This document shows positions 7,586 through 28,187 of a stretch of 64,000 nucleotides of DNA, in pieces. The stretch spans positions 62,001 to 126,000 of the forward strand of contig NW_027507056.1 in the NCBI RefSeq assembly GCF_052324685.1. The letters run 5' to 3'. Source of the DNA: Brachyhypopomus gauderio. Taxonomy: Eukaryota > Chordata > Actinopteri > Gymnotiformes > Hypopomidae. The number at the start of each line of letters is the position of its first letter. The first letter of the stretch is position 1. The notes under the pieces were generated by a model. That model did no database searches and was not told the DNA's origin. It saw nothing but the letters and a program-made list of their open reading frames with translations. The position numbers and the translations under genes are program-made.

Positions 7586-8348
7586 CACGTGCTGTGTCTC
7601 GCAGTGATGCTGAGTCAGGTGACGTGCACTTGTCCCCTTGATTTTAAAGTACTCTGAATCATTGTGCCTGCAAGGAGGTGGTAAAAAGAACACATTGTGG
7701 TGATATTGACTCACTGTTGCCACTCCTCTTTTACCATCGTCAGTTTGTGGACTTATGATAGGAAAAACTCAAAGAATCTTGGTGACCTACAGGTTTGATT
7801 CATCTGCCTTCCTAGTTAAGTCATGCAAACCATTTGCTGCAAAATTGGCTTTAGCTACATTGGCAATTCATTTTGTCTTTGTATTCCAGTGCATTGTACC
7901 GAACTGCAATATCCATCTTAGATCAACTGAGATTTTGCATTTCTCTCTTTCCCACATGCAAGTTCTGAATTTCTTGGCACACATTACTGCTTTGCATCTA
8001 CTAAAAGCACTCCAGAGAAAGCTTCACTTCATACCTTCATGAGGTAGGTGTCGTTTGTACTTGTATTTTGGTGGTATTTTTGTTTTTTTTTTTGTTTGTG
8101 TGCGTTGTTTGTCTACTCTTGGAACATCCTGTGATTGGTTAGGGTAGGATTAGAGTTTAATTACGTTGGCCTCAGATTCTGGTTAATTCCAGGCTTCTTG
8201 TGCTAACCTTGTTGTTTGTTAGCTGTTGTTGGCAGTAATTAGTTGCTGCAGGTGCACTTGCCGCCATGCTCCAAGGAGTGAATTGGGGGCGGATACATTT
8301 TTTCTCCAGCTTTGTTAGTTCTTCCTCAGCCTCGCTTCTTCTTTCCTA

Positions 8349-8421
8349 GCCTCGTTAGCGCAGTAGGTAGCGCGTCAGTCTCATAATCTGAAGGTCGTGA
8401 GTTCGACCCTCACACGGGGCA
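8349..8421 (+). tRNA. tRNA-Met-CAT: tRNA-Met (CAT), unit 5
   Basis: Consensus copy. Confidence 0.97.
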
Positions 8422-9004
8422 GCAGAAGCTTTTTGAAAAGATTGACGAGCCCCCAAAAGATGCTCAAACGCTCTTTCCTTATTCACTCGCATGCTGAGCA
8501 CACCCCCTACCTGAAAATAGTATTGGCACATGACTCTTACAGGTCATCCCTAGTTGATTCAAGCTGTGCTTTTTCTTTTGTAAATTCGCGTGTACACAGC
8601 AAGTTGTGTTGCATCCAATTCAATTCTCTCCACTGACCGTTCAGTCAATATCTTGATGGCGTCTGTATTGACACCTCTACTGAGACATCAAGCTGCCTCT
8701 TTGGAGCATGTTCGCTCCCAGATCAAACTGCAGTGTCGTGGTGCCAACACAGAATAATGGACCACGTCGGACACTTTTCACTTTTGATTCTTTTTGATTC
8801 ACTTTTGATGACACGCTTTTGAATACCTGATCACCTGGAATTGGTACCAGCTTGAAGTTAATAGTGAGTAGACTTATGGAGATTCATTTATTTGAATTTT
8901 CTTCTCAAGCCATTTGCAACTCAGAAGCAATGACACTTGTGCACTCATCATTGAGCTTGAGGAAGTCCAAGGAATTGATCTCTATGTTACTCTCGCTCCG
9001 CCGA

Positions 9005-9086
9005 GCTGCGATGGCCGAGAGGTTAAGGCGTTGGACTTGAAATCCAATGGGGTTTCCCCGCGCAGGTTCGACTCCTGCTTGCAGCG
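9005..9086 (+). tRNA. tRNA-Ser-TGA: tRNA-Ser (TGA), unit 5
   Basis: Consensus copy. Confidence 0.97.
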
Positions 9087-9490
9087 TGAGTGTCTTGTTG
9101 GGCGTGTGGAAAGAGAGAGTGTGCTCTCTTCCTGCTAGCCAGTTTTAAATATGCTTCTCATGCCATTTGCAACTTTGTGCTGCCAAACTTTAGCAGTCCT
9201 AACTGATCCTGAAATAGTCCCAGGAATTGAGTTACAAATGGCTGCTTCGTCGTTACAATGTGTTGGCATGGAAATGCAGTGGGGTCTCTTGCAGCGTAGA
9301 GGATTAACTTGCCTCTCTAATGTGATTTGTGATGAGACCTTATGCCACCAGTGGGGAGAGCTCGCACTCACAGGTGCTTCATCCAAAGATCTTCATGCAA
9401 CATAGCGATGTCTTGTTTCAGGTAAAAGAAAAAGTGCCACATTCTTTCATGGCCGGTCACTGGTTGCTCCGCCTTGCGCTAAAAGAGGGT

Positions 9491-9562
9491 CTCCCCGTCG
9501 GGGAATCGAACCCCGGTCTTCCGCGTGACAGGCGGAGATACTATCCACTATACTAACGAGGA
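9491..9562 (-). tRNA. tRNA-Asp-GTC: tRNA-Asp (GTC), unit 5
   Basis: Consensus copy. Confidence 0.97.
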
Positions 9563-10324
9563 CACGTGCTGTGTCTCGCAGTGATGCTGAGTCAGGTGAC
9601 GTGCACTTGTCCCCTTGATTTTAAAGTACTCTGAATCATTGTGCCTGCAAGGAGGTGGTAAAAAGAACACATTGTGGTGATATTGACTCACTGTTGCCAC
9701 TCCTCTTTTACCATCGTCAGTTTGTGGACTTATGATAGGAAAAACTCAAAGAATCTTGGTGACCTACAGGTTTGATTCATCTGCCTTCCTAGTTAAGTCA
9801 TGCGAACCATTTGCTGCAAAATTGGCTTTAGCTACATTGGCAATTCATTTTGTCTTTGTATTCCAGTGCATTGTACCGAACTGCAATATCCATCTTAGAT
9901 CAACTGAGATTTTGCATTTCTCTCTTTCCCACATGCAAGTTCTGAATTTCTTGGCACACATTACTGCTTTACATCTACTAAAAGCACTCCAGAGAAAGCT
10001 TCACTTCATACCTTCATGAGGTAGCTGTCGTTTGTACTTGTATTTTGGTGGTATTTTTGTTTTTTTTTTGTTTGTGTGCGTTGTTTGTCTACTCTTGGAA
10101 CATCCTGTGATTGGTTAGGGTAGGATTAGAGTTTAATTACGTTGGCCTCAGATTCTGGTTAATTCCAGGCTTCTTGTGCTAACCTTGTTGTTTGTTAGCT
10201 GTTGTTGGCAGTAATTAGTTGCTGCAGGTGCACTTGCCGCCATGCTCCAAGGAGTGAATTGGGGGCGGATACATTTTTTCTCCAGCTTTGTTAGTTCTTC
10301 CTCAGCCTCGCTTCTTCTTTCCTA

Positions 10325-10397
10325 GCCTCGTTAGCGCAGTAGGTAGCGCGTCAGTCTCATAATCTGAAGGTCGTGAGTTCGACCCTCACACGGGGTA
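10325..10397 (+). tRNA. tRNA-Met-CAT: tRNA-Met (CAT), unit 6, position 72 variant
   Basis: C to T at 10396 gives a G-U first acceptor pair. Confidence 0.94.
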
Positions 10398-10980
10398 GCA
10401 GAAGCTTTTTGAAAAGATTGACGAGCCCCCAAAAGATGCTCAAACGCTCTTTCCTTATTCACTCGCATGCTGAGCACACCCCCTACCTGAAAATAGTATT
10501 GGCACATGACTCTTACAGGTCATCCCTAGTTGATTCAAGCTGTGCTTTTTCTTTTGTAAATTCGCGTGTACACAGCAAGTTGTGTTGCATCCAATTCAAT
10601 TCTCTCCACTGACCGTTCAGTCAATACCTTGATGGCGTCTGTATTGACACCTCTACTGAGACATCAAGCTGCCTCTTTGGAGCATGTTCGCTCCCAGATC
10701 AAACTGCAGTGTCGTGGTGCCAACACAGAATAATGGACCACGTCGGACACTTTTCACTTTTGATTCTTTTTGATTCACTTTTGATGACACGCTTTTGAAT
10801 ACCTGATCACCTGGAATTGGTACCAGCTTGAAGTTAATAGTGAGTAGACTTATGGAGATTCATTTATTTGAATTTTCTTCTCAAGCCATTTGCAACTCAG
10901 AAGCAATGACACTTGTGCACTCATCATTGAGCTTGAGGAAGTCCAAGGAATTGATCTCTATGTTACTCTCGCTCCGCCGA

Positions 10981-11062
10981 GCTGCGATGGCCGAGAGGTT
11001 AAGGCGTTGGACTTGAAATCCAATGGGGTTTCCCCGCGCAGGTTCGACTCCTGCTTGCAGCG
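10981..11062 (+). tRNA. tRNA-Ser-TGA: tRNA-Ser (TGA), unit 6
   Basis: Consensus copy. Confidence 0.97.
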
Positions 11063-11466
11063 TGAGTGTCTTGTTGGGCGTGTGGAAAGAGAGAGTGTGC
11101 TCTCTTCCTGCTAGCCAGTTTTAAATATGCTTCTCATGCCATTTGCAACTTTGTGCTGCCAAACTTTAGCAGTCCTAACTGATCCTGAAATAGTCCCAGG
11201 AATTGAGTTACAAATGGCTGCTTCGTCGTTACAATGTGTTGGCATGGAAATGCAGTGGGGTCTCTTGCAGCGTAGAGGATTAACTTGCCTCTCTAATGTG
11301 ATTTGTGATGAGACCTTATGCCACCAGTGGGGAGAGCTCGCACTCACAGGTGCTTCATCCAAAGATCTTCATGCAACATAGCGATGTCTTGTTTCAGGTA
11401 AAAGAAAAAGTGCCACATTCTTTCATGGCCGGTCACTGGTTGCTCCGCCTTGCGCTAAAAGAGGGT

Positions 11467-11538
11467 CTCCCCGTCTGGGAATCGAACCCCGGTCTTCCGC
11501 GTGACAGGCGGAGATACTATCCACTATACTAACGAGGA
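11467..11538 (-). tRNA. tRNA-Asp-GTC: tRNA-Asp (GTC), unit 6, T-stem variant
   Basis: Base 64 T-stem change at 11476, as in units 2 and 3. Confidence 0.93.
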
Positions 11539-12300
11539 CACGTGCTGTGTCTCGCAGTGATGCTGAGTCAGGTGACGTGCACTTGTCCCCTTGATTTTAA
11601 AGTACTCTGAATCATTGTGCCTGCAAGGAGGTGGTAAAAAGAACACATTGTGGTGATATTGACTCACTGTTGCCACTCCTATTTTACCATCGTCAGTTTG
11701 TGGACTTATGATAGGAAAAACTCAAAGAATCTTGGTGACCTACAGGTTTGATTCATCTGCCTTCCTAGTTAAGTCATGCGAACCATTTGCTGCAAAATTG
11801 GCTTTAGCTACATTGGCAATTCATTTTGTCTTCGTATTCCAGTGCATTGTACCGAACTGCAATATCCATCTTAGATCAACTGAGATTTTGCATTTCTCTC
11901 TTTCCCACATGCAAGTTCTGAATTTCTTGGCACACATTACTGCTTTGCATCTACTAAAAGCACTCCAGAGAAAGCTTCACTTCATACCTTCATGAGGTAG
12001 GTGTCGTTTGTACTTGTATTTTGGTGGTATTTTTGTTTTTTTTTTGTTTGTGTGCGTTGTTTGTCTACTCTTGGAACATCCTGTGATTGGTTAGGGTAGG
12101 ATTAGAGTTTAATTACGTTGGCCTCAGATTCTGGTTAATTCCAGGCTTCTTGTGCTAACCTTGTTGTTTGTTAGCTGTTGTTGGCAGTAATTAGTTGCTG
12201 CAGGTGCACTTGCCGCCATGCTCCAAGGAGTGAATTGGGGGCGGATACATTTTTTCTCCAGCTTTGTTAGTTCTTCCTCAGCCTCGCTTCTTCTTTCCTA

Positions 12301-12373
12301 GCCTCGTTAGCGCAGTAGGTAGCGCGTCAGTCTCATAATCTGAAGGTCGTGAGTTCGACCCTCACACGGGGCA
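12301..12373 (+). tRNA. tRNA-Met-CAT: tRNA-Met (CAT), unit 7
   Basis: Consensus copy. Its downstream spacer carries a G at 12469 that marks it as the first member of the same two-unit repeat seen at 29426 and 33375. Confidence 0.97.
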
Positions 12374-12956
12374 GCAGAAGCTTTTTGAAAAGATTGACGA
12401 GCCCCCAAAAGATGCTCAAACGCTCTTTCCTTATTCACTCGCATGCTGAGCACACCCCCTACCTGAAAGTAGTATTGGCACATGACTCTTACAGGTCATC
12501 CCTAGTTGATTCAAGCTGTGCTTTTTCTTTTGTAAATTCGCGTGTACACAGCAAGTTGTGTTGCATCCAATTCAATTCTCTCCACTGACCGTTCAGTCAA
12601 TACCTTGATGGCGTCTGTATTGACACCTCTACTGAGACATCAAGCTGCCTCTTTGGAGCATGTTCGCTCCCAGATCAAACTGCAGTGTCGTGGTGCCAAC
12701 ACAGAATAATGGACCACGTCGGACACTTTTCACTTTTGATTCTTTTTGATTCACTTTTGATGACACGCTTTTGAATACCTGATCACCTGGAATTGGTACC
12801 AGCTTGAAGTTAATAGTGAGTAGACTTATGGAGATTCATTTATTTGAATTTTCTTCTCAAGCCATTTGCAACTCAGAAGCAATGACACTTGTGCACTCAT
12901 CATTGAGCTTGAGGAAGTCCAAGGAATTGATCTCTATGTTACTCTCGCTCCGCCGA

Positions 12957-13038
12957 GCTGCGATGGCCGAGAGGTTAAGGCGTTGGACTTGAAATCCAAT
13001 GGGGTTTCCCCGCGCAGGTTCGACTCCTGCTTGCAGCG
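12957..13038 (+). tRNA. tRNA-Ser-TGA: tRNA-Ser (TGA), unit 7
   Basis: Consensus copy. Confidence 0.97.
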
Positions 13039-13442
13039 TGAGTGTCTTGTTGGGCGTGTGGAAAGAGAGAGTGTGCTCTCTTCCTGCTAGCCAGTTTTAA
13101 ATATGCTTCTCATGCCATTTGCAACTTTGTGCTGCCAAACTTTAGCAGTCCTAACTGATCCTGAAATAGTCCCAGGAATTGAGTTACAAATGGCTGCTTC
13201 GTCGTTACAATGTGTTGGCATGGAAATGCAGTGGGGTCTCTTGCAGCGTAGAGGATTAACTTGCCTCTCTAATGTGATTTGTGATGAGACCTTATGCCAC
13301 CAGTGGGGAGAGCTCGCACTCACAGGTGCTTCATCCAAAGATCTTCATGCAACATAGCGATGTCTTGTTTCAGGTAAAAGAAAAAGTGCCACATTCTTTC
13401 ATGGCCGGTCACTGGTTGCTCCGCCTTGCGCTAAAAGAGGGT

Positions 13443-13514
13443 CTCCCCGTCGGGGAATCGAACCCCGGTCTTCCGCGTGACAGGCGGAGATACTATCCAC
13501 TATACTAACGAGGA
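13443..13514 (-). tRNA. tRNA-Asp-GTC: tRNA-Asp (GTC), unit 7
   Basis: Consensus copy. Confidence 0.97.
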
Positions 13515-14275
13515 CACGTGCTGTGTCTCGCAGTGATGCTGAGTCAGGTGACGTGCACTTGTCCCCTTGATTTTAAAGTACTCTGAATCATTGTGCCTGC
13601 AAGGAGGTGGTAAAAAGAACACATTGTGGTGATATTGACTCACTGTTGCCACTCCTCTTTTACCATCGTCAGTTTGTGGACTTATGATAGGAAAAACTCA
13701 AAGAATCTTGGTGACCTACAGGTTTGATTCATCTGCCTTCCTAGTTAAGTCATGCGAACCATTTGCTGCAAAATTGGCTTTAGCTACATTGGCAATTCAT
13801 TTTGTCTTCGTATTCCAGTGCATTGTACCGAACTGCAATATCCATCTTAGATCAACTGAGATTTTGCATTTCTCTCTTTCCCACATGCAAGTTCTGAATT
13901 TCTTGGCACACATTACTGCTTTGCATCTACTAAAAGCACTCCAGAGAAAGCTTCACTTCATACCTTCATGAGGTAGGTGTCGTTTGTACTTGTATTTTGG
14001 TGGTATTTTTGTTTTTTTTTGTTTGTGTGCGTTGTTTGTCTACTCTTGGAACATCCTGTGATTGGTTAGGGTAGGATTAGAGTTTAATTACGTTGGCCTC
14101 AGATTCTGGTTAATTCCAGGCTTCTTGTGCTAACCTTGTTGTTTGTTAGCTGTTGTTGGCAGTAATTAGTTGCTGCAGGTGCACTTGCCGCCATGCTCCA
14201 AGGAGTGAATTGGGGGCGGATACATTTTTTCTCCAGCTTTGTTAGTTCTTCCTCAGCCTCGCTTCTTCTTTCCTA

Positions 14276-14288
14276 GCCTCGTTGGCGC
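14276..14288 (+). pseudogene. 5' fragment of the tRNA-Met of unit 8, cut by transposon
   Basis: The first 13 nt of tRNA-Met (GCCTCG plus the target site TTGGCGC) stop abruptly at the transposon edge. The fragment holds the 5' acceptor strand but no complete promoter box and cannot act alone. Confidence 0.95.
14282..14288. repeat. Left target site duplication (TTGGCGC)
   Basis: Identical to 21529-21535. The uninterrupted tRNA-Met genes here read TTAGCGC at this place (TTAGAGC in unit 27). Confidence 0.92.
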
Positions 14289-14294
14289 TCATTG

Positions 14295-14309
14295 TCGACT
14301 GTCAGTCGA
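14295..14309. repeat. 15 bp palindrome near the left transposon end
   Basis: TCGACTG, a central T, then CAGTCGA. TCGACTG recurs at 21460-21466 near the right end. It lies within the first 21 bp of the element, so it may be a transposase contact site; this is inference from position alone. Confidence 0.6.
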
Positions 14310-14340
14310 GGTAATTCTAGGTAACTCTTGGTAGCGATAT

Positions 14341-14464
14341 CCAATCACCTTTCAGCCTGCTACCAGAATGATATCAAGAATTGGCCAATCGTTGGCCTTA
14401 TCGCTATCAAGAATAGCTCGACAGACTGAATGAACCAATCACAAGACGTATCGCTTCCAAGAAT
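14341..14464 (+). repeat. Three left subterminal repeats of about 30 bp
   Basis: Copies lie at 14341-14369, 14385-14414 and 14435-14464. Each starts CCAATC and ends with a CAAGAAT- or CAGAAT-like block; the last two share TATCGCT in the middle. The second and third agree at about 22 of 30 positions. They also supply the CCAAT boxes of the promoter. Transposase binding is a second possible role. Confidence 0.65.
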
Positions 14465-14567
14465 GGGCGATGACGACACGGTGTCAAATGCCAATCGCGA
14501 GCGTCTCACAGCGCTCCTCAGAATTTAAGTTATATAGGCGGGTTTTAGGGGAGAGTTATATTCAGTT
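14341..14567 (+). promoter_or_regulatory. Transposase gene promoter: CCAAT boxes, TATA box, initiator
   Basis: CCAAT occurs at 14341, 14385, 14435 and 14491 on the + strand, the second as part of the palindrome ATTGGCCAAT (14380-14389). A TATA box (TATATA) is at 14531-14536. An initiator-like TCAGTT is at 14562-14567, 31 bp after the first T of the TATA box, which is the expected distance. This is a compact Pol II promoter located in the transposon end itself. Confidence 0.75.
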
Positions 14568-14649
14568 CAACATTAACTTTCGTAGCTGGTCTGCGCTCGT
14601 TTCTTATACATTCTCGGACACGGACCTTTCGACGTCTACAAAGAAAAAT
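14562..14649 (+). other. Predicted 5' noncoding exon of the transposase gene
   Basis: The exon would run from the initiator to a strong splice donor (AAAAAT|GTAAGT, GT at 14650). The next acceptor is TTCACAG (AG at 15666-15667), three bases before the start codon. No open frame continuous with the protein is seen in this exon. Confidence 0.6.
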
Positions 14650-15085
14650 GTAAGTATAAATATAAACGTATTAAGTGTGCTAGCTTAGTAGGTTTTGTTA
14701 ACGGCGCATCGCGCTATGCAAGATTACTATCCACCGTAATTCAGCAGCATTTATATACGTAGTATTGACTTAACTCTATGATATCTATTTGTATGGAACG
14801 AAGAAAAATGTATGTGTAAATATAAACGTATCAAGTGTGTAGATAAAGTGTGCTAGCTTAGTAGCTTTGCAAGATTACTATCCACCGTAATTCAGCTGCA
14901 TTTATATACGTAGTATTGACTTAACTCTATGATATCTATTTGTATAGAACGAAGAAAAATGTATGTGTAAATATAAACGTATTAAGTGTGTAGATAAAGT
15001 GTGCTAGCTTAGTAGCTTTGCAAGATTACTATCCACCGTAATTCAGCTGCATTTATATACGTAGTATTGACTTAACTCTGATATC
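14641..15085 (+). repeat. Three tandem copies of about 150 bp in intron 1
   Basis: Copies begin near 14641, 14798 and 14949, each starting GAAGAAAAATGTA or similar and ending near ATGATATCTATTTG. The third is cut slightly short. The first copy includes the end of the noncoding exon and its GTAAGT donor; the second and third read GTATGT at that place. A tandem duplication across the exon border therefore made two extra, weaker donor sites. Confidence 0.85.
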
Positions 15086-15158
15086 TGAACGCCATATCAA
15101 CCACTTAGTCATAGCATCGGGGCATAACCACCTTGCAACCACTTTTTGATGACAAAAC

Positions 15159-15503
15159 GGCATTTACATTCACCTGGGAAAAGTCCTGAAAGGGTCAAAA
15201 GACCCTTAATCCAGACTGACTACCCTGATGGCTCCAAATCAATATCTCTTCATTTGCAAATGTGGCCATTGCCTGGCATTTACATTCACCTGGGAAAAGC
15301 CCTGAAAGGGTCAAAAGACCCTTAATCCAGACTGACTACCCTGATGGCTCCAAATCAATATCTCTTCATTTGCAAATGTGGCCATTGCCTGGCATTTACA
15401 TTCACCTGGGAAAAGCCCTGAAAGGGTCAAAAGACCCTTAATCCAGACTGACTACCCTGATGGCTCCAAATCAATATCTCTTCATTTGCAAATGTAGCCA
15501 TGA
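15159..15503 (+). repeat. Three tandem copies of a 116 bp repeat in intron 1
   Basis: Copies start at 15159, 15275 and 15391 and are nearly identical. Each contains a perfect hairpin, AAGGGTC-AAAA-GACCCTT. The block ends at CTTCTAGTG followed by TTAA (15526-15529), which resembles the end of a small TTAA-targeting (piggyBac-like) nonautonomous element. No matching left end is found, so the origin is uncertain. Confidence 0.75.
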
Positions 15504-15670
15504 CCCTTCTCTGGGACTTCTAGTGTTAAATGTTCATGGACATGATTTATTTATTCATTTATTCTCTGAATTATTTGTTTTTACACTTTTACATGTTCTA
15601 ATAATACTTCATAATAAATAATAATTATTACAATAATTATAACTATTTAATAATACTCTATTCACAGACC

Positions 15671-18600
15671 ATGGAACCCATATTCAGGAAGAAAGCTGAT
15701 GGCAGTCCCAATCTGTGTGACTCCAAGGCTGCCCTATGTGTGAAGGAAGCCAATAAAAAGAAGCCGTGGGCCAGAGCCATTTCTCCTGAAAAGGTGAAGG
15801 ATTCTGCAAGACGGGCAGTGTTGCGCTCAGGTGGAGATCCAGGCAACGCTGTCCACGTGCTGGGTCAGCATGAGCTTCAGTTTGGAGTTTTCAGGGGTCA
15901 GACCTTCAAGTGGGTGGCTGAAAACGCCCTGGGCTACGCCGGATACCTTGTTGCTGACATGAAGAAGGAGTCTTCACAGGGGAAAGATTCCATTAACCAT
16001 GCGGAAAACAAGAAAGCATTCCGTTCATATGTTGAACGTTTCCCAGAGGGCCGATATGCCGTCCGGATCAAGACAGAGAAGATGTCTTGTAGCAGCACTC
16101 AGTCTGCTTCCCTGCCCTGCACCAGCACTGAGCCCAACATCAGTCCGCTGTCTACTGACCCCATGCAAGCCTGCACCAGCACTGAGTCCTCTAGCAGTCA
16201 GCTGTCTGAGCCTGTCCAGTCCTCTGACTCCTGCCAGCCTTCAGTGGCTTCAGTCTCTTCCCTGCGCACTTTGTTGGTTGGGAGAGGCAGTAGCACAAAG
16301 AGCCTAGAAAAGACAGTGAAGAGGCTCATTTCACCCTCCAAGTTCAAACCTTGTAAGTGTATGAATAATGAACTCCTAGAATTTACCATGGACATAAAAG
16401 CAACCTATTTATTTGATCATGTGTTTTATCACCCATTCCAGCTGTGTCCCTCCCTTCATTTGAACCCACTCACATGGACGACAGTGAACTGGTGACGGCT
16501 GCTGAGCAGGTGGAATCAGAACTGACAGGTAAGATTTATTTATTTTTTATCAATATTGTATTATGTGGCTCATTACTCATTACAAATGTGATTCATGATT
16601 ATTTTTCCCCCTTTCTTTTGCTTTCATCTGTTCAGTGCAGAGCAGAATTTGCCTCCCTGCTGGATGGAAACCTGCTCTTCCTATTGTAGATCAGCAGTGG
16701 ATTTCCAAGGCACTTTTCAAGTGGTCACGAAATGGACAACCAGAGTTGGACCATTCGAAAGTGGACAAGATGTGGTGGCACCCCCCTCAGCCTTCACTAA
16801 CTCCCAGTGGTGTGCCAGCAATGGAGAGGTACTTTGGACACGCCTTGTTTCTCTGGATGCCGAGGAAGCTTTGGCATGTGCGGCTGTTCTGCCCCCATCC
16901 TGACTGTGGCAAGGAGGAGCTCACGTCTGCTGGAGTGCATCAGAGGATCAGGCAGGTGGTTGGTATCAGCAGCTCCTACTTCATGGCAGCAGAATACCTT
17001 GCCTGTAAGAGCTGCAAGAGGAAGGTGATCAGCTGGAGCCACAACATTGTCTGTCAGCTGGACATTGGCCATCGTGTCCAGTTTCCCTGCTTCCTCACCT
17101 CCAAGCTGGCATGTGACATTCAAGTAGTGCGGCAGATGCGTCAGAGGGGTTTGGGGAACAGCAGCAGTCAGCTCCAGAAGCAGATGGAGGAGCAGCACTC
17201 AGAGGCCTGGCTGGAGAAACAGGTCCAGTACCTCACAGACTGCAAAGGACTCGTGAGAGCTGCATCGTCTGGACTCATCACACCTGTTGTTCTAGGGGAT
17301 CTGCCACCATTGCTCCAAGTCCCAAAGCATCGCTGGCTGATGCAGGTGTATGCTCAGGATGTCCTGAACAGACTAGAGGAGGTAAAGGCCTCCATCACCT
17401 CGCAGTTTGGCCGTGTGCTAAAGATGGACTCCACAAAAAAAATTGTGAGGAAGCTGGCAGGACAGAGCCGCGCAACAGCAGCTTGGGCCACCAACGTTGG
17501 CAACGAGCACGGACAAGTCATCATGTCTGTGCTCACGGCCAGTGAAGGCTATGGCTTGGGCAAGATGATTGATGGCATCATGAAGCGCTACCGAGACGCT
17601 GGTGTGTCAACTCCAGAGGTGCTGTATGTTGACCGGGACTGCTGCGGGGCCACTCATCTCAGAAACATGTTTAAGGGATGGGAGGACATGGAGATCCGAC
17701 TGGACATCTGGCACTACATGAGGAGGATAGCGGTTGGCTGCACCACTGACTCCCATGTGCTTTATGCAGGCTTCATGAACAGTCTGAGCCACTGTATTTT
17801 CATGTGGGATGAGTCTGACCTCCAGGCGCTTAAGGAGGCCAAGCGCTCAGAGCTGGAGGCAAAGTTGATGCACCCCACGGATGCAGGTGTGATGAGGAAC
17901 ATCACCAGAGCAGAGATGGCACTGCACTGCAAGAGGACCACTCGCAGCTGTGAGGACATCAAGGCACTTGTGACAGAGTTGATCCGGTCCTACGATGGTG
18001 AGAAGGGCTGCAACACCCTTGGCGTGCCCCTCATCAACTCTGCGAGGATGGCCGAGATCTGGAGCAGCCAAACAAAGCACATTGCCTGCATCCAGGACCC
18101 TCCGGGTGTACAACTGTACATGCAGACGGGAACCATCCTGAAGGGGGGGCACAGTCTGCCAACGTACAGATGTGCCAGAGGTTCTACTTCCCTGGAATCC
18201 TTTCACCTGCATATGAACAGGTTCATTCCTGGTAAGCTTCCACCTATACGTTAAAGCCTTTAATGTAGTTACTTATCTAAAACCAGTCTAACAATTTCAA
18301 TGTGTAATATGTTTCAGGGACCTTGGCAAGTGATACTTTTTTCCAGGCTTACCTGGTGGATGGCCTTGCCAGGTGGAATGAAGACCGGAGACTGGCAGCT
18401 GCAGGAAAAGACCAGCCCCATTCCTACAGTGGCCTGCTTAAATATGCTGCCAACCAGCTGTCTCAGGAGGTACTGGGGAGAACACTGGTGGACTACACAG
18501 GGCCACGAAAGTATACAGGTACGCCTAAATTTACATGATCCGAGAAATAAAAAGTAAAAAGCAGTTACTGTTGGCCTGGACATTTATGCTTCTTGTTTTT

Positions 18601-19967
18601 ATTTTTTCTTTCAGGAGAGCTCATAGGTGTGGAGTACTTATACGAGCAGACCGGCAGTGCCCTGGAAGACTATAAATTAGTCATCTTGGCTCTTGAGACT
18701 GAGGATGTGACCGTGGCAGAAGATGAAGGTTTTGAAGAGGCACAGGATTTTGAGGACTTAACTGTCCCAGCATTTGAAACAGAACCACCTGCTGTGCCAT
18801 CTGCTTCTGATGCCTCCAGTGGTGTTGCATTTGCTCCTCCGGTCTCCATCTCTGCTCCTCCGGTCTCCATCTCTACTCCTCCGGTCTCCATCTCTGCTCC
18901 TCCGGTCTCCATCTCTACTCCTCCGGTCTCCATCTCTACTCCTCCGGTCTCCATCTCTACTCCTCCGGTCTCCATCTCTGCTCCTCCGGTCTCCATCTCT
19001 GCTCCTCCAGTCTCCATCTCTGCTCCCCTGGTCTCTCCACCTGCTCCTTCAAACAGCAACCCGACTTCTGCTCTTGTGGCTTCCCCTAGCCAAGATGTAA
19101 GATTTCTTCTGTTCATTCCATTAATTGGTGACTCTGATAGGCTTGTATACATGCTGCTTCCTGCTTTATCTAATCACTGTGATTCTTCATTTAGGACTCA
19201 GTGGGACCTGATAACATTGAGGGCTATAGAGCTGTGCAGAACTTGGCAGACTACCTAGTCACCCTGAAGGACCACAGCTTTGCTTTGTCGCTTGAGGAAT
19301 CAAGCCACATCATCACCCTTTGGCAGGCTCTTAGTGACTATGATAAGCAGCGCATGGTATATGCTCCACGTCATCAAGCCACTTTGAACAAGGGGCGCTT
19401 CAGGGTCACTAAGAAAATTGTAGCTCCAGGCGTGGAGTCCACAAGGCGGTAAGCTGTTATGCGTAAATGCACTGGTTTACAGTGTTTATGTGTAAATGCA
19501 CTGGTTTACAGTGTTTATGTGTAAATGCACTGGTTTGCAGTGTTTATGTTGGCAAATTAATAATCATCTGTGTATATTGTGTTTTTTATTCTTTTCCAGG
19601 TGTTTTGTTGGAGCAAACAGCCCTGCACAGTGGCCAGACTGCAACAGAGTTGTGGAGGCAATCTTTGTCCGGCTGTGTATTACATTTCCAAACCCGAAAA
19701 ACATCGGTGGGGTCAGGTTTGGAAGGTGGACCCTCATCTGTCGTGCTTACAAGCACATCAGGGAGTGCGTCTTGAGTAATGCACATGTGATGCAGGGGAC
19801 CACCATCCAGCTACCAGAAGTGAATGCCACCACACTGTCAGAGTGGTGAGTCAATCAATTTTCAGATGTTAAAAAAATGTATTTAACTATATTTAATTAA
19901 TATCGGGATTTATTTGTTGACAGCCATGTTCTTCTTAAAATGTCTTTTTAATTTAATAACTGAACTC

Positions 19968-20024
<57 letters not shown>

Positions 20025-20880
20025 GTACTGCAGGCGGACTCGTTCACAGGAGTCTGATGTTCTTCATCAGGGCATCATGCCTCCAGAAGCACCAGTATCA
20101 GGTCCTACAACACAGCGGTCCACACCCCAGAAGGACAGTCTTGCCTCTCACCCCTCCACAGACAGCCCCCATGTCTTTGTCCTGCCCCCTGACACTGCAG
20201 GGACGGCAAAGTTGAAGAGACGTTTGACCTTCACATCAGGTCCAGCTTCATCTGCTCCACCTCAGCAGAACCTGCCTGCACCTCCCCAGTGTGTCTCCTA
20301 CAGCATGCCTACTGATCCTGGATTTTGTTTGGTGTATGTAGTGCCAGGACCTGGTCCAGACAGCCATAGCCAAGTGGTGGCACAAGGAGTGACACACATT
20401 ATGCCTGCTACCGCCAGCCACATTATGCCTGCTACCGCCAGCCACATTATGCCTGCTACCGCCAGCCATAGCCAAGGAGTGGCACACATTATGCCTGCTA
20501 CCGCCAGCCATAGCCAAGGAGTGGCACACATTATGCCTGCTACCGCCAGCCATAGCCAAGGAGTGGCACACATTATGCCTGCTACCGCTGGATCCAGTCA
20601 GGGTGCGTTGGCAGTGACCCAGATGTCAGATGTGCCATACACGACACAGCAATACCGGAAGCGGAAATTGAAAAACGAGATGGCTGGTATAAAGACCCGC
20701 AAATATGTTCGCCACACCAGCGCTATAATTTGCAGGAGATGCCAAAAAGAGAGGAAGCCCCCCACACATCAACAGTACTTTGGCAACTGGTATTGTGAAG
20801 AAACTGACACCATGTCACTGGAGGATTGGAAGGCTATGCTGGTAGCACGGGGCTATGGAAAGAAGAAAGCCCCAAAATAA
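15671..20880 (+). CDS. Dada-like DDE transposase, 8 coding exons
   Basis: Coding exons are 15671-16352, 16442-16528, 16636-18231, 18318-18518, 18615-19096, 19195-19448, 19600-19845 and 20025-20880. All introns are GT-AG and the phases join without a break into 1467 codons. The start sits in a strong Kozak context (ACCATGG). Residues 65-97 hold a G-x-F-x-G-x-TF-x-W-x-x-EN-x-x-GYA pattern like the small ExoX-C-like module; this is tentative. Cysteines 342, 347, 380 and 383 form a likely zinc site of the kind in fish DUF6729 proteins. The catalytic core has D521 (KMDSTKK), D589 or D591 (YVDRDCCG), DxxH at 613-616 (DIWH) and candidate E777 (SLESFH). Known biology: DxxH between the second D and the E marks the MuDR/hAT/P/Kolobok/Dada group. 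Seven-residue repeats fill 929-991 and HIMPATAS repeats about 1307-1371. A basic C-terminal region has a C-x2-C pair (1419, 1422) and is probably DNA-binding. The role is cutting and insertion of the element in the nucleus. Exon borders are my reading and lack transcript support; the last exons could be alternatively spliced. Confidence 0.82.
18833..19021 (+). repeat. 21 bp coding minisatellite (nine APPVSIS/TPPVSIS repeats)
   Basis: Nine 21 bp copies encode a proline/serine-rich heptad alternating A and T at the first residue, followed by a degenerate tenth copy (APLVSPP). It lies in exon 5 between the catalytic part and the C-terminal module and is probably an unstructured linker. Confidence 0.9.
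19463..19549 (+). repeat. 29 bp minisatellite in intron 6, three copies
   Basis: Three near-identical 29 bp units start at 19463, 19492 and 19521, each beginning GTAAATGCACTGG. They lie just after the exon 6 donor and do not affect the reading frame. Confidence 0.88.
19970..20022 (+). repeat. (TG)26 microsatellite at a 3' splice site
   Basis: A pure TG run ends two bases before the AG acceptor of exon 8 (AG at 20023-20024), taking the place of the usual pyrimidine tract. UG repeats next to acceptors are known binding sites for TDP-43 and CELF proteins (the CFTR exon 9 case), so use of exon 8 may be sensitive to repeat length. Confidence 0.92.
20395..20592 (+). repeat. Coding repeats HIMPATAS and HSQGVAHIMPATAS
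   Basis: Exon 8 holds three 24 bp units (HIMPATAS) followed by three longer ones of about 42 bp (HSQGVAHIMPATAS). The longer unit looks like the short one fused with a HSQGVA segment and then amplified. Repeats are in frame and leave the reading frame open. Confidence 0.85.
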
Positions 20881-21191
20881 AAATTATGTGTCTGCATAAT
20901 TGTATATATAATAATTGTATATATGTGCCATGATTGTAAATATATTAGTAGTAGCTGTAGTGTTAGTATCTTAGTCAAGTCAAAACATTGTGTATTTGTA
21001 TATATTAAACATTGTAATTTTTTAAATTATTTGCATAGGTATCTGTAAACGTTATATATATTATATATATATATATTATTTATATTATAATATAATAATA
21101 TATATTATATATATATTATATATTATATATATATTATATATATATTATATATTGTGGATAATGTTCTCTAATGTGTTGTGTTTTTAATAAA
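20876..21191 (+). terminator. Candidate polyadenylation signals of the transposase gene
   Basis: AATAAA at 20876-20881 overlaps the stop codon. A second AATAAA at 21186-21191 is followed by GT-rich sequence and further AATAAA copies around 21219 and 21253. Either could be used; the second has the better downstream GT-rich context. Confidence 0.5.
21048..21155. repeat. AT-rich simple repeat in the 3' region
   Basis: About 100 bp of TATATATTA-type sequence between the gene and the right-end repeats. No function is visible. Confidence 0.85.
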
Positions 21192-21300
21192 AGTGCCTGG
21201 TTGGTTTTATCGTTCATAATAAATGTGTTGTGTTTGGATTTATCGTTCATAATAAATGTGTTGTGTTTTAAACATGTGTCTGGTTGGTTTTATCGTTTAT
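21165..21300 (+). repeat. Short tandem repeats downstream of the gene
   Basis: The motif AATGTGTTGTGTTT followed by a TTTATCGTTCATAAT-like block recurs about three times, two of them with GGTTGGTTTTATCG. It carries several AATAAA hexamers. Confidence 0.7.
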
Positions 21301-21440
21301 AATATCACGCATTTCCTTTATATTTAACCAATTTATAAATATGTAATATCACGCACTTCCTTTGTATTTTACTATTTATGAACGTGTCCGATAATATCGC
21401 GCATTTCCTTTGCATTTAACTATTTCCAAACTTGTCCGAT
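21300..21440 (+). repeat. Three right subterminal repeats of 44-48 bp
   Basis: Copies at 21300-21343, 21344-21391 and 21392-21440 each begin TAATATC(A/G)CGCA and continue TTCCTTTRTATTT. The last two end GTCCGAT-like. Number and spacing resemble the three repeats at the left end, so they are candidate transposase-binding sites (inference). The 88 bp from here to the element end are unique apart from TCGACTG and ACCTCGAC. Confidence 0.75.
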
Positions 21441-21528
21441 GCGGGATTCGATACGATGCTCGACTGGGCGAATCTTAGTAATTGTTTACTATTAATAGCG
21501 CCGAAACCTCGACACACACGCGCAGTCC

Positions 21529-21535
21529 TTGGCGC
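21529..21535. repeat. Right target site duplication (TTGGCGC)
   Basis: Second copy of the 7 bp duplication. The bases on either side differ between the two ends, so it is exactly 7 bp long. Confidence 0.92.
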
Positions 21536-21595
21536 AGTAGGTAGCGCGTCAGTCTCATAATCTGAAGGTCGTGAGTTCGACCCTCACACGGGGCA
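21529..21595 (+). pseudogene. 3' part of the tRNA-Met of unit 8, promoter boxes kept
   Basis: This is tRNA-Met from its seventh base to the end, including the A box (remade by the duplication), the CAT anticodon, the B box and a TTTTT terminator downstream. The first six bases are replaced by the transposon end (CAGTCC), which cannot pair with the 3' acceptor strand. It should be unable to make a working tRNA yet may still recruit Pol III. Confidence 0.9.
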
Positions 21596-22178
21596 GCAGA
21601 AGCTTTTTGAAAAGATTGACGAGCCCCCAAAAGATGCTCAAACGCTCTTTCCTTATTCACTCGCATGCTGAGCACACCCCCTACCTGAAAATAGTATTGG
21701 CACATGACTCTTACAGGTCATCCCTAGTTGATTCAAGCTGTGCTTTTTCTTTTGTAAATTCGCATGTACACAGCAAGTTGTGTTGCATCCAATTCAATTC
21801 TCTCCACTGACCGTTCAGTCAATACCTTGATGGCGTCTGTATTGACACCTCTACTGAGACATCAAGCTGCCTCTTTGGAGCATGTTCGCTCCCAGATCAA
21901 ACTGCAGTGTCGTGGTGCCAACACAGAATAATGGACCACGTCGGACACTTTTCACTTTTGATTCTTTTTGATTCACTTTTGATGACACGCTTTTGAATAC
22001 CTGATCACCTGGAATTGGTACCAGCTTGAAGTTAATAGTGAGTAGACTTATGGAGATTCATTTATTTGAATTTTCTTCTCAAGCCATTTGCAACTCAGAA
22101 GCAATGACACTTGTGCACTCATCATTGAGCTTGAGGAAGTCCAAGGAATTGATCTCTATGTTACTCTCGCTCCGCCGA

Positions 22179-22260
22179 GCTGCGATGGCCGAGAGGTTAA
22201 GGCGTTGGACTTGAAATCCAATGGGGTTTCCCCGCGCAGGTTCGATTCCTGCTTGCAGCG
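22179..22260 (+). tRNA. tRNA-Ser-TGA: tRNA-Ser (TGA), unit 8, T-loop variant
   Basis: C to T at 22246 gives a TTCGATT loop, as common in other tRNAs; still a normal cloverleaf. Shared only with unit 16. Confidence 0.96.
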
Positions 22261-22664
22261 TGAGTGTCTTGTTGGGCGTGTGGAAAGAGAGAGTGTGCTC
22301 TCTTCCTGCTAGCCAGTTTTAAATATGCTTCTCATGCCATTTGCAACTTTGTGCTGCCAAACTTTAGCAGTCCTAACTGATCCTGAAATAGTCCCAGGAA
22401 TTGAGTTACAAATGGCTGCTTCGTCGTTACAATGTGTTGGCATGGAAATGCAGTGGGGTCTCTTGCAGCGTAGAGGATTAACTTGCCTCTCTAATGTGAT
22501 TTGTGATGAGACCTTATGCCACCAGTGGGGAGAGCTCGCACTCACAGGTGCTTCATCCAAAGATCTTCATGCAACATAGCGATGTCTTGTTTCAGGTAAA
22601 AGAAAAAGTGCCACATTCTTTCATGGCCGGTCACTGGTTGCTCCGCCTTGCGCTAAAAGAGGGT

Positions 22665-22736
22665 CTCCCCGTCGGGGAATCGAACCCCAGTCTTCCGCGT
22701 GACAGGCGGAGATACTATCCACTATACTAACGAGGA
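22665..22736 (-). tRNA. tRNA-Asp-GTC: tRNA-Asp (GTC), unit 8, T-stem variant
   Basis: + strand G to A at 22689 makes a U-G pair in the T stem (49-65). Shared only with unit 16. Confidence 0.95.
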
Positions 22737-23499
22737 CACGTGCTGTGTCTCGCAGTGATGCTGAGTCAGGTGACGTGCACTTGTCCCCTTGATTTTAAAG
22801 TACTCTGAATCATTGTGCCTGCAAGGAGGTGGTAAAAAGAACACATTGTGGTGATATTGACTCACTGTTGCCACTCCTCTTTTACCATCGTCAGTTTGTG
22901 GACTTATGATAGGAAAAACTCAAAGAATCTTGGTGACCTACAGGTTTGATTCATTTGCCTTCCTAGTTAAGTCATGCGAACCATTTGCTGCAAAATTGGC
23001 TTTAGCTACATTGGCAATTCATTTTGTCTTCGTATTCCAGTGCATTGTACCGAACTGCAATATCCATCTTAGATCAACTGAGATTTTGCATTTCTCTCTT
23101 TCCCACATGCAAGTTCTGAATTTCTTGGCACACATTACTGCTTTGCATCTACTAAAAGCACTCCAGAGAAAGCTTCACTTCATACCTTCATGAGGTAGGT
23201 GTCGTTTGTACTTGTATTTTGGTGGTATTTTTGTTTTTTTTTTTGTTTGTGTGCGTTGTTTGTCTACTCTTGGAACATCCTGTGATTGGTTAGGGTAGGA
23301 TTAGAGTTTAATTACGTTGGCCTCAGATTCTGGTTAATTCCAGGCTTCTTGTGCTAACCTTGTTGTTTGTTAGCTGTTGTTGGCAGTAATTAGTTGCTGC
23401 AGGTGCACTTGCCGCCATGCTCCAAGGAGTGAATTGGGGGCGGATACATTTTTTCTCCAGCTTTGTTAGTTCTTCCTCAGCCTCGCTTCTTCTTTCCTA

Positions 23500-23572
23500 G
23501 CCTCGTTAGCGCAGTAGGTAGCGCGTCAGTCTCATAATCTGAAGGTCGTGAGTTCGACCCTCACACGGGGCA
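23500..23572 (+). tRNA. tRNA-Met-CAT: tRNA-Met (CAT), unit 9
   Basis: Consensus copy. Confidence 0.97.
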
Positions 23573-24155
23573 GCAGAAGCTTTTTGAAAAGATTGACGAG
23601 CCCCCAAAAGATGCTCAAACGCTCTTTCCTTATTCACTCGCATGCTGAGATCACCCCCTACCTGAAAATAGTATTGGCACATGACTCTTACAGGTCATCC
23701 CTAGTTGATTCAAGCTGTGCTTTTTCTTTTGTAAATTCGCGTGTACACAGCAAGTTGTGTTGCATCCAATTCAATTCTCTCCACTGACCGTTCAGTCAAT
23801 ACCTTGATGGCGTCTGTATTGACACCTCTACTGAGACATCAAGCTGCCTCTTTGGAGCATGTTCGCTCCCAGATCAAACTGCAGTGTCGTGGTGCCAACA
23901 CAGAATAATGGACCACGTCGGACACTTTTCACTTTTGATTCTTTTTGATTCACTTTTGATGACACGCTTTTGAATACCTGATCACCTGGAATTGGTACCA
24001 GCTTGAAGTTAATAGTGAGTAGACTTATGGAGATTCATTTATTTGAATTTTCTTCTCAAGCCATTTGCAACTCAGAAGCAATGACACTTGTGCACTCATC
24101 ATTGAGCTTGAGGAAGTCCAAGGAATTGATCTCTATGTTACTCTCGCTCCGCCGA

Positions 24156-24237
24156 GCTGCAATGGCCGAGAGGTTAAGGCGTTGGACTTGAAATCCAATG
24201 GGGTTTCCCCGCGCAGGTTCGACTCCTGCTTGCAGCG
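24156..24237 (+). tRNA. tRNA-Ser-TGA: tRNA-Ser (TGA), unit 9, A6 form
   Basis: G to A at 24161 turns the G-U sixth acceptor pair into A-U. Same in units 10, 17, 18 and 20. Confidence 0.96.
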
Positions 24238-24639
24238 TGAGTGTCTTGTTGGGCGTGTGGAAAGAGAGTGTGCTCTCTTCCTGCTAGCCAGTTTTAAATA
24301 TGCTTCTCATGCCATTTGCAACTTTGTGCTGCCAAACTTTAGCAGTCCTAACTGATCCTGAAATAGTCCCAGGAATTGAGTTACAAATGGCTGCTTCGTC
24401 GTTACAATGTGTTGGCATGGGAATGCAGTGGGGTCTCTTGCAGCGTAGAGGATTAACTTGCCTCTCTAATGTGATTTGTGATGAGACCTTATGCCACCAG
24501 TGGGGAGAGCTCGCACTCACAGGTGCTTCATCCAAAGATCTTCATGCAACATAGCGATGTCTTGTTTCAGGTAAAAGAAAAAGTGCCACATTCTTTCATG
24601 GCCGGTCACTGGTTGCTCCGCCTTGCGCTAAAAGAGGGT

Positions 24640-24711
24640 CTCCCCGTCGGGGAATCGAACCCCGGTCTTCCGCGTGACAGGCGGAGATACTATCCACTAT
24701 ACTAACGAGGA
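24640..24711 (-). tRNA. tRNA-Asp-GTC: tRNA-Asp (GTC), unit 9
   Basis: Consensus copy. Confidence 0.97.
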
Positions 24712-25474
24712 CACGTGCTGTGTCTCACAGTGATGCTGAGTCAGGTGACGTGCACTTGTCCCCTTGATTTTAAAGTACTCTGAATCATTGTGCCTGCAAG
24801 GAGGTGGTAAAAAGAACACATTGTGGTGATATTGACTCACTGTTGCCACTCCTCTTTTACCATCGTCAGTTTGTGGACTTATGATAGGAAAAACTCAAAG
24901 AATCTTGGTGACCTACAAGTTTGATTCATCTGCCTTCCTAGTTAAGTCATGCAAACCATTTGCTGCAAAATTGGCTTTAGCTACATTGGCAATTCATTTT
25001 GTCTTCGTATTCCAGTGCATTGTACCGAACTGCAATATCCATCTTAGATCAACTGAGATTTTGCATTTCTCTCTTTCCCACATGCAAGTTCTGAATTTCT
25101 TGGCACACATTACTGCTTTGCATCTACTAAAAGCACTCCAGAGAAAGCTTCACTTCATACCTTCATGAGGTAGGTGTCGTTTGTACTTGTATTTTGGTGG
25201 TATTTTTGTTTTTTTTTTTGTTTGTGCGCGTTGTTTGTCTACTCTTGGAACATCCTGTGATTGGTTAGGGTAGGATTAGAGTTTAATTACGTTGGCCTCA
25301 GATTCTGGTTAATTCCAGGCTTCTTGTGCTAACCTTGTTGTTTGTTAGCTGTTGTTGGCAGTAATTAGTTGCTGCAGGTGCACTTGCCGCCATGCTCCAA
25401 GGAGTGAATTGGGGGCGGATACATTTTTTCTCCAGCTTTGTTAGTTCTTCCTCAGCCTCGCTTCTTCTTTCCTA

Positions 25475-25547
25475 GCCTCGTTAGCGCAGTAGGTAGGGCG
25501 TCAGTCTCATAATCTGAAGGTCGTGAGTTCGACCCTCACACGGGGCA
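25475..25547 (+). tRNA. tRNA-Met-CAT: tRNA-Met (CAT), unit 10, D-stem variant
   Basis: C to G at 25497 breaks one D-stem pair. The downstream terminator is shortened to TTTT (25556-25560 reads ATTTT). Confidence 0.88.
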
Positions 25548-26130
25548 GCAGAAGCATTTTGAAAAGATTGACGAGCCCCCAAAAGATGCTCAAACGCTCT
25601 TTCCTTATTCACTCGCATGCTGAGCACACCCCCTACCTGAAAATAGTATTGGCACATGACTCTTACAGGTCATCCCTAGTTGATTCAAGCTGTGCTTTTT
25701 CTTTTGTAAATTCGCGTGTACACAGCAAGTTGTGTTGCATCCAATTCAATTCTCTCCACTGACCGTTCAGTCAATACCTTGATGGCGTCTGTATTGACAC
25801 CTCTACTGAGACATCAAGCTGCCTCTTTGGAGCATGTTCGCTCCCAGATCAAACTGCAGTGTCGTGGTGCCAACACAGAATAATGGACCACGTCGGACAC
25901 TTTTCACTTTTGATTCTTTTTGATTCACTTTTGATGACACGCTTTTGAATACCTGATCACCTGGAATTGGTACCAGCTTGAAGTTAATAGTGAGTAGACT
26001 TATGGAGATTCATTTATTTGAATTTTCTTCTCAAGCCATTTGCAACTCAGAAGCAATGACACTTGTGCACTCATCATTGAGCTTGAGGAAGTCCAAGGAA
26101 TTGATCTCTATGTTACTCTCGCTCCGCCGA

Positions 26131-26212
26131 GCTGCAATGGCCGAGAGGTTAAGGCGTTGGACTTGAAATCCAATGGGGTTTCCCCGCGCAGGTTCGACTC
26201 CTGCTTGCAGCG
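26131..26212 (+). tRNA. tRNA-Ser-TGA: tRNA-Ser (TGA), unit 10, A6 form
   Basis: A at 26136, giving an A-U sixth acceptor pair. Confidence 0.96.
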
Positions 26213-26614
26213 TGAGTGTCTTGTTGGGCGTGTGGAAAGAGAGTGTGCTCTCTTCCTGCTAGCCAGTTTTAAATATGCTTCTCATGCCATTTGCAACTTT
26301 GTGCTGCCAAACTTTAGCAGTCCTAACTGATCCTGAAATAGTCCCAGGAATTGAGTTACAAATGGCTGCTTCGTCGTTACAATGTGTTGGCATGGGAATG
26401 CAGTGGGGTCTCTTGCAGCGTAGAGGATTAACTTGCCTCTCTAATGTGATTTGTGATGAGACCTTATGCCACCAGTGGGGAGAGCTCGCACTCACAGGTG
26501 CTTCATCCAAAGATCTTCATGCAACATAGCGATGTCTTGTTTCAGGTAAAAGAAAAAGTGCCACATTCTTTCATGGCCGGTCACTGGTTGCTCCGCCTTG
26601 CGCTAAAAGAGGGT

Positions 26615-26686
26615 CTCCCCGTCGGGGAATCGAACCCCGGTCTTCCGCGTGACAGGCGGAGATACTATCCACTATACTAACGAGGA
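26615..26686 (-). tRNA. tRNA-Asp-GTC: tRNA-Asp (GTC), unit 10
   Basis: Consensus copy. Confidence 0.97.
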
Positions 26687-27449
26687 CACGTGCTGTGTCT
26701 CACAGTGATGCTGAGTCAGGTGACGTGCACTTGTCCCCTTGATTTTAAAGTACTCTGAATCATTGTGCCTGCAAGGAGGTGGTAAAAAGAACACATTGTG
26801 GTGATATTGACTCACTGTTGCCACTCCTCTTTTACCATCGTCAGTTTGTGGACTTATGATTGGAAAAACTCAAAGAATCTTGGTGACCTACAGGTTTGAT
26901 TCATCTGCCTTCCTAGTTAAGTCATGCGAACCATTTGCTGCAAAATTGGCTTTAGCTACATTGGCAATTCATTTTGTCTTCGTATTCCAGTGCATTGTAC
27001 CGAACTGCAATATCCATCTTAGATCAACTGAGATTTTGCATTTCTCTCTTTCCCACATGCAAGTTCTGAATTTCTTGGCACACATTACTGCTTTGCATCT
27101 ACTAAAAGCACTCCAGAGAAAGCTTCACTTCATACCTTCATGAGGTAGGTGTCGTTTGTACTTGTATTTTGGTGGTATTTTTGTTTTTTTTTTTGTTTGT
27201 GTGCGTTGTTTGTCTACTCTTGGAACATCCTGTGATTGGTTAGGGTAGGATTAGAGTTTAATTACGTTGGCCTCAGATTCTGGTTAATTCCAGGCTTCTT
27301 GTGCTAACCTTGTTGTTTGTTAGCTGTTGTTGGCAGTAATTAGTTGCTGCAGGTGCACTTGCCGCCATGCTCCAAGGAGTGAATTGGGGGCGGATACATT
27401 TTTTCTCCAGCTTTGTTAGTTCTTCCTCAGCCTCGCTTCTTCTTTCCTA

Positions 27450-27522
27450 GCCTCGTTAGCGCAGTAGGTAGCGCGTCAGTCTCATAATCTGAAGGTCGTG
27501 AGTTTGACCCTCACACGGGGCA
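27450..27522 (+). tRNA. tRNA-Met-CAT: tRNA-Met (CAT), unit 11, B-box variant
   Basis: C to T at 27505 changes the invariant C56 of the T loop (GTTCGA to GTTTGA). This hits both the B box and tertiary folding, so the copy is probably weak or dead. Confidence 0.75.
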
Positions 27523-28105: not shown

Positions 28106-28187
28106 GCTGCGATGGCCGAGAGGTTAAGGCGTTGGACTTGAAATATAATGGGGTTTCCCCGCGCAGGTTCGACTCCTGCTTGCAGCG
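28106..28187 (+). tRNA. tRNA-Ser-TGA: tRNA-Ser (TGA), unit 11, damaged anticodon stem
   Basis: CC to AT at 28145-28146 leaves one mismatch and one G-U in the five-pair anticodon stem. Anticodon and boxes are unchanged; the RNA may fold poorly. Confidence 0.78.

Follow-up and report, generated by a model that had tools for sequence, protein, structure and literature searches.

In one unit of a tandem tRNA array of Brachyhypopomus gauderio, a 7.24-kb element interrupts a gene for elongator tRNA-Met directly after base 13 of the tRNA. The array fills most of the 64,000-nucleotide stretch of contig NW_027507056.1 analysed here (the window, C212:62001-126000); genome-wide searches covered the 797-Mb genome. 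We consider it highly probable that the element belongs to the Dada DDE cut-and-paste transposons, within the group that inserts at tRNA bases 8-13, in the A box, and that it is autonomous and has moved recently. Dada is a superfamily of DNA transposons that aims at small-RNA genes, and few DNA transposons are site-specific (Kojima 2022, PMC8869645; Kojima and Jurka 2013, PMC3706591). In this genome the element was found chiefly in elongator tRNA-Met, with tRNA-Lys as a second site and tRNA-Arg as that of an older relative.

Anatomy of the insertion

Bases 1-13 of the tRNA lie to the left of the element and bases 8-73 to the right, so that the A-box and B-box regions are both complete on the right side (Table 1). 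This confirms an earlier note on this DNA, made from the sequence alone, which had placed the element within an elongator tRNA-Met gene. The window holds 87 tRNA genes identified by ARAGORN. TTGGCGC occurs twice in the window when both strands are checked, at 14282 and 21529, and the flanks can be read as a 7-bp or a 6-bp target-site duplication, both within the 6-7 bp characteristic of Dada. The 6-bp form (TGGCGC, tRNA bases 8-13) is more likely, since it places both subterminal inverted repeats at one distance from the duplication; base T7 would in this case be the final base of the element, matching the target by chance. The earlier note gave a 7-bp duplication and a 7240-bp element; the element is 7240 bp long if the duplication has 7 bp, and with the likelier 6 bp it measures 7241 bp. 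The two duplications had also been called identical, which they are to each other, although both carry G at base 9 where the native gene has A.

Eight exons with GT/AG borders are predicted to splice in phase into a frame of 1467 amino acids with a single terminal stop, as the earlier note had proposed when it described eight coding exons of compatible phase in an intact-looking element; one spliced gene would thus encode the transposase. The protein contains a DDE triad with a DxxH motif after the second D, likewise recognised earlier, together with an N-terminal CCCC and a C-terminal CCHC zinc finger, all of which are features of Dada. The catalytic and zinc-binding residues stand in the same order as the set of Dada-U6_DR, with nearly equal spacings. 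A Pfam scan of the protein at E up to 10 returned DUF6729 alone (E 2.4e-89), and a literature search found no publication under that name.

Table 1 Features of the window; positions are those of the whole 64,000-nucleotide stretch
Feature	Position	Strand	Remarks
Surrounding tandem array, tRNA-Met(CAT)+ / tRNA-Ser(TGA)+ / tRNA-Asp(GTC)-	446..63594		unit ~1976 bp; ARAGORN
5' part of split elongator tRNA-Met, bases 1-13	14276..14288	+	GCCTCGT + TGGCGC
Left target-site duplication, tRNA bases 8-13	14283..14288	+	TGGCGC; as 7 bp, TTGGCGC 14282-14288
Dada transposon (highly probable)	14289..21529	+	7241 bp with 6-bp duplication; 14289-21528 (7240 bp) with 7-bp duplication
Motif equal to empty tRNA-Met at equal distance	14301..14307	+	GTCAGTC; positions 13-19 from duplication
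Left subterminal inverted repeat	14305..14312	+	GTCGAGGT; positions 17-24 from duplication
Promoter-like stretch (putative)	14341..14650	+	CCAAT 14341, 14385, 14435, 14491; TATATA 14531
Possible 5' untranslated exon	ending at 14650	+	donor-like GTAAGT; predicted from sequence
Coding exon 1	15671..16352	+	ATG in ACCATGG
Coding exon 2	16442..16528	+
Coding exon 3	16636..18231	+	DUF6729 amino acids 267-500; CCCC C342, C347, C380, C383; D521, D589, D613xxH616 (DIWH 613-616), E777
Coding exon 4	18318..18518	+
Coding exon 5	18615..19096	+	21-bp in-frame tandem repeat
Coding exon 6	19195..19448	+
Coding exon 7	19600..19845	+
Coding exon 8	20025..20880	+	42-bp in-frame repeat; C-terminal CCHC C1419, C1422, H1431, C1440; stop TAA
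Right subterminal inverted repeat	21506..21513	-	positions 17-24 from right duplication
Right duplication (21530-21535) and remaining tRNA-Met, i.e. bases 8-73	21530..21595	+

Copies of the element in the genome

A genome search allowing up to 3 mismatches found the left end at nine places and the right end at six, and reversed control patterns of both ends gave no match in the genome at the same threshold. Both ends are present at six places, namely the window copy (C212) and five copies on C3 (C3a-e), and 6/6 share a single insertion point within elongator tRNA-Met. Chance is excluded because the ends recur, the controls are empty and the base is the same in all six. TGGCGC or TTGGCGC stands on both sides in five of these copies, with C3d off by one base on the right side. 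A fixed insertion place in multicopy small-RNA genes is a further trait of Dada. Three additional left ends were found, of which C1 lies in a tRNA-Lys gene, C13 is an older relative in tRNA-Arg that begins after base 13 (GGGCCAG + TGGAGC, left side only), and C14 is considered below. The expectation of several copies, all in tRNA-Met at the same base, holds for the two-ended copies and fails for the left ends in tRNA-Lys and tRNA-Arg.

The C1 copy lies within a separate array of tRNA-Asn and tRNA-Lys(CTT) genes, in which many matches are ~1390 bp or multiples thereof apart. A neighbouring unit is unbroken (GCCCGGCTAGCTCAGTCGG), and the copy begins directly after TAGCTC, i.e. after base 13. TAGCTC at bases 8-13 of tRNA-Lys is the target of Dada-tK; a placement of the element in that lineage would have this one left side to go by. 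The copy carries a ~2.5 kb insertion before exon 1 and is otherwise ~99.9% identical to the window copy, with 4/2607 coding and 0/908 non-coding differences outside repeats; against the five C3 copies it shows 8-11 coding and 5-8 non-coding differences. The near-identity of C1 and C212 indicates recent movement of the family between tRNA types, and the family is site-specific but not exclusive to tRNA-Met.

Frames were followed in the six two-ended copies and in C1. A copy on C9 was left out; it corresponds to element positions 1238-6636 and runs into N on its 3' side. They are open in C212 (1467 amino acids), C3e (1446) and C3d (1439); C3b and C3c stop at codon 1047, C3a has an insert in exon 3, and C1 is cut by N. 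The exon 5 repeat varies among copies by multiples of 21 bp, and none of the six tRNA-Met copies is thrown out of frame by its changes of repeat length in exons 5 and 8. Open frames in three copies and a ~99.9% identical copy at another locus argue for recent mobility. To that extent the earlier suggestion that the element may be active is supported; current activity we infer.

At least some of the six tRNA-Met copies are duplicates made by the array rather than separate insertions. C3a-c have in common a nested insert at element position ~6803, in which C3b is 100% identical to C3c over 1214 bp and C3a 99.8% over 1157 bp. C3d and C3e lie in a short unit type that has ~315 bp absent, like two units of the window, and C3b and C3c in a long one. 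Compared with two units of its own array (31401 and 35350), the window copy shows a single differing column in each flank, and in the left flank this column is base 9. Because of the nested insert, the unit types and the near-identical flanks, array amplification and conversion explain much of the copy number, with copies multiplying passively along with the repeat units, and the separate insertions into tRNA-Met number at least one. The two short units in the window are its last (59060-62453), measuring ~1661 bp against 1976 bp, and the missing ~315 bp lies upstream of tRNA-Met. The nested insert is GC-rich and repeat-rich (L042 from 7406 onward, L049, L043 from 7414 onward, L048), and at C3:41652500-41654498 (L055, L039) the array inverts to the other strand ~355 bp upstream of the C3a element.

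Older relics are associated with tRNA-Arg. C62 is a decayed copy, and an intact tRNA-Arg gene stands no more than about 500 bp away from each of the relics C62 and C14. An exact tRNA-Arg pattern matched 12 times in the genome, an undercount, since a 2.3-kb cluster piece has three genes by ARAGORN and two by the pattern. The C9 copy, at 7.61 Mb, has nine of the matches in its vicinity (C9:7.21-7.59 Mb), and two of the 12 adjoin the C62 and C14 relics; the window copy itself is in tRNA-Met. In both relics (L045 and L046) a right end abuts a left end nearly directly, head to tail, an arrangement resembling that of an element landing at the end of another.

Element ends and the target motif

The ends were compared counting from a 6-bp duplication, with significance assessed by shuffling. 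Their outermost bases do not pair, and in register the two ends agree over no stretch longer than the 8 bp of positions 17-24 (GTCGAGGT, P about 0.0003). The left end agrees with the target tRNA in an in-register run of 7 (GTCAGTC, P about 0.001). A subterminal repeat in common with the target, in place of a terminal inverted repeat, is the Dada arrangement as described for the U6 and U1 families. Over 24 positions, the two ends match at 13 (P 0.004) and the right end matches the target at 11 (P 0.03), or slightly better (12) at an offset of -2. The left ends of C13 and C14, of the tRNA-Arg type, read GTCTGTC where tRNA-Arg reads GTCTGAC, a difference that is suggestive though small. In the mechanism that we propose, the transposase would cut the tRNA gene at bases 8-13 with a 6-bp stagger. 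To do so it would read a short motif that lies ~12 bp in from either end of the element, and its counterpart in the tRNA gene, equally far downstream of the cut.

Weighing the alternatives

Several observations weigh against this reading of the element, its target recognition and its history. The longest run between the right end and the target is just 3 (P 0.26), over its full length the left end does not agree significantly with the target (10/24, P 0.06), and at the place of the GTCAGTC motif tRNA-Lys reads ATGAGAC, identical at 4/7; because these matches are weak, the motif alone would be insufficient for target choice. The right junction of C1 falls within an N run, leaving the left side visible, and no tRNA was recognised next to the left end of C14. 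In exon 8 of the C9 copy, 20 positions are gapped relative to the window copy, which is not a multiple of 3. Divergence between C212 and C3d outside repeats (14/3936 coding and 15/1798 non-coding differences) is no more than a modest sign of selection. On the side of the reading, the two copies show, repeats included, 10 synonymous and 8 nonsynonymous differences (P 0.014 relative to the neutral expectation of 72% nonsynonymous), a test that counts as one comparison, the copy pairs having a common history. An assembly artefact, or a chance juxtaposition of the element and the tRNA halves, could be suspected where the C1 and C9 copies enter N and where C3d has its native base 9 on the right, 98 bp before N; with six two-ended places and one copy in another tRNA array, we regard it as extremely improbable. 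Only marginally more credible is an origin in another DDE superfamily with a C/DxxH motif. This motif is common to hAT, P, MuDR and Kolobok (Kojima 2022, PMC8869645), which have duplications of like length according to Kojima and Jurka 2013 (PMC3706591), but the spacings, both zinc fingers, the subterminal repeats and the small-RNA target all fit Dada, and DUF6729 was the sole Pfam hit. The Dada-like identity first proposed is thus upheld by the residues and their spacings, the zinc fingers, the duplication, the ends and the fixed tRNA site.

The G at base 9 admits two accounts. In the window, every one of the 28 tRNA-Met genes that lack an insertion carries A there (bases 7-13 read TTAGCGC in 27 and TTAGAGC in one), whereas inserted Met copies have G on the left in 6/6 and on the right in 5/6, C3d being the copy with the native base. 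When 1 kb of flank to the left and right was aligned, omitting the unit at 446 as too close to the window edge, base 9 was the sole column separating all 6 inserted from all 27 uninserted units. Genome-wide, a pattern allowing A or G at base 9 gave 351 exact uninserted matches, of which the 100 listed all have A, and a slightly different G-only pattern gave none. The element could have brought G9 to both sides from an ancestor flanked by TGGCGC in tRNA-Arg, if Dada integration can bring along the 6-bp flank of the former site; one way would be for the overhangs of donor and target to anneal and the mismatch then to be resolved. Besides the counts above, this account is favoured by the relatives that lie within tRNA-Arg or next to it, a tRNA that reads TGGCGC at bases 8-13, and by the flank replacement described for Dada-tA and Dada-tY, sometimes one-sided (Kojima 2022, PMC8869645), with which the base-9 G would by analogy fit. 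It has to contend with C13, which has TGGAGC instead, with the tRNA-Lys copy, which retains native TAGCTC on the left, so that a carried flank is not obligatory, and with the prospect that the six Met copies stem from one insertion and hence perhaps from one event; we judge its chances to be evenly balanced. Alternatively, the first insertion may have hit a rare tRNA-Met that already had G9, array amplification then spreading it and the empty variant being lost later. Ordinary faithful duplication would account for both sides, the left flank is faithful in the tRNA-Lys copy, and spread by array duplication is indicated by the 99.8-100% identity of the C3a-c nested insert and the short unit of C3d and C3e. 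The absence of any uninserted G9 gene beside the 351 A-or-G matches, which at present frequencies sets the prior at ~1 in 352, makes this account somewhat improbable, and we lean slightly towards the carried flank. The fuller version, in which the old 6-bp flank travels, pairs with the overhang of the new tRNA and rewrites the site into the ancestral target, here from A9 to G9, on each side independently, is tentative and rather unlikely. If the flank does travel, these 6 bp would be a heritable part of the element, and Dada integration would be more than simple target duplication.

The duplicated sequence on its own was tried as the attractant and rejected: 288 exact initiator tRNA-Met matches contain TGGCGC, and such a gene flanks 0/9 left ends. 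Among the 100 initiator matches listed (C10, C171 and others), many are ~1050 bp apart.

Relatives of the transposase

Further Dada relatives occur on C16, C67, C69, C148, C27, C18, C23, C7, C40, C17, C1 and others, mostly 31-57% identical to exon 3, with one short C1 piece at 86%. Across 27 further loci, the CCCC, D, D, DxxH and E residues are conserved where covered, with two exceptions. These loci are not 27 separate elements, as L065, L066 and L067 overlap L019, L030 and L037, L017 and L018 are one copy, and L015-L018 belong to the family of the element itself. One exception is a Q in place of E in the decayed C62 copy (L016). The other is a seeming V in place of the first catalytic D in the C148/C27/C18 family (6/27 loci), which in L067, the one locus checked, is a product of overlapping alignment pieces. 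The C-terminal CCHC is covered in L065 and L066 only and is conserved there. L066 (C67) adjoins two tRNA-Ala genes; no junction is readable among L065-L067, and in L065 both outermost 200 bases are N. Outside this genome, a search of viral contigs gave no match, one of prokaryote genome contigs gave eight pattern matches, none confirmed, and one of the PDB gave a single match at E 1.2; none of the three yielded a relative.

Comparison with known Dada systems

With near-identical copies at two tRNA targets beside hundreds of empty targets, and open frames in three of the Met copies, this genome is a good test case for target reading and flank replacement; apart from these questions the element represents an ordinary new family. 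Kojima 2022 (PMC8869645) names tRNA-Arg, -Asn and -Met as targets of Dada-tR or Dada-tN, and the TGGCGC-bearing tRNA-Met in question may be the initiator. Whether an elongator tRNA-Met family had been described was left undecided in the earlier note; insertion into tRNA-Met is mentioned in Kojima 2022, and in the text covered neither that paper nor Kojima and Jurka 2013 names a tRNA-Met Dada family. In the parts of the literature available to us, with Repbase and the supplements outside the scope, we found no Dada family with elongator tRNA-Met as its main site. As a Dada target, tRNA-Met is therefore already on record, and what appears to be new is a family mainly in elongator tRNA-Met.

Compared by published description only, Dada-tR and Dada-tN resemble this element in inserting at tRNA bases 8-13 with the flank TGGCGC, and its relatives lie in or beside tRNA-Arg (PMC8869645). 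They differ in their targets: our element is found mainly in elongator tRNA-Met, which natively reads TAGCGC followed by AG where the tR and tN targets continue with AA, and it also occurs in tRNA-Lys. Dada-tK and Dada-tY, again compared by description only, use the same tRNA position with the target TAGCTC followed by AG, as in the C1 tRNA-Lys copy, and flank replacement is published for Dada-tY (Kojima 2022, PMC8869645); tRNA-Met as the main site sets our element apart from both. Dada-U6_DR, as described by Kojima and Jurka 2013 (PMC3706591), has in common with it the residue set, the introns and a subterminal repeat matching the target at equal distance, an arrangement of the end motif published there for Dada-U6 and Dada-U1. 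The D-D spacing is 68 in both, the D-E spacing is 188 here and 176 in Dada-U6_DR, and the zinc-finger spacings are 5/33/3 here versus 5/35/3 for CCCC and 3/9/9 versus 3/10/9 for CCHC. According to the same source, Dada-U6_DR targets U6 small nuclear RNA, has 11 exons and 1402 amino acids compared with 8 coding exons and 1467 amino acids here, and has its transposase directed opposite to the target gene, whereas the transposase of the present element runs in the same direction as the tRNA.

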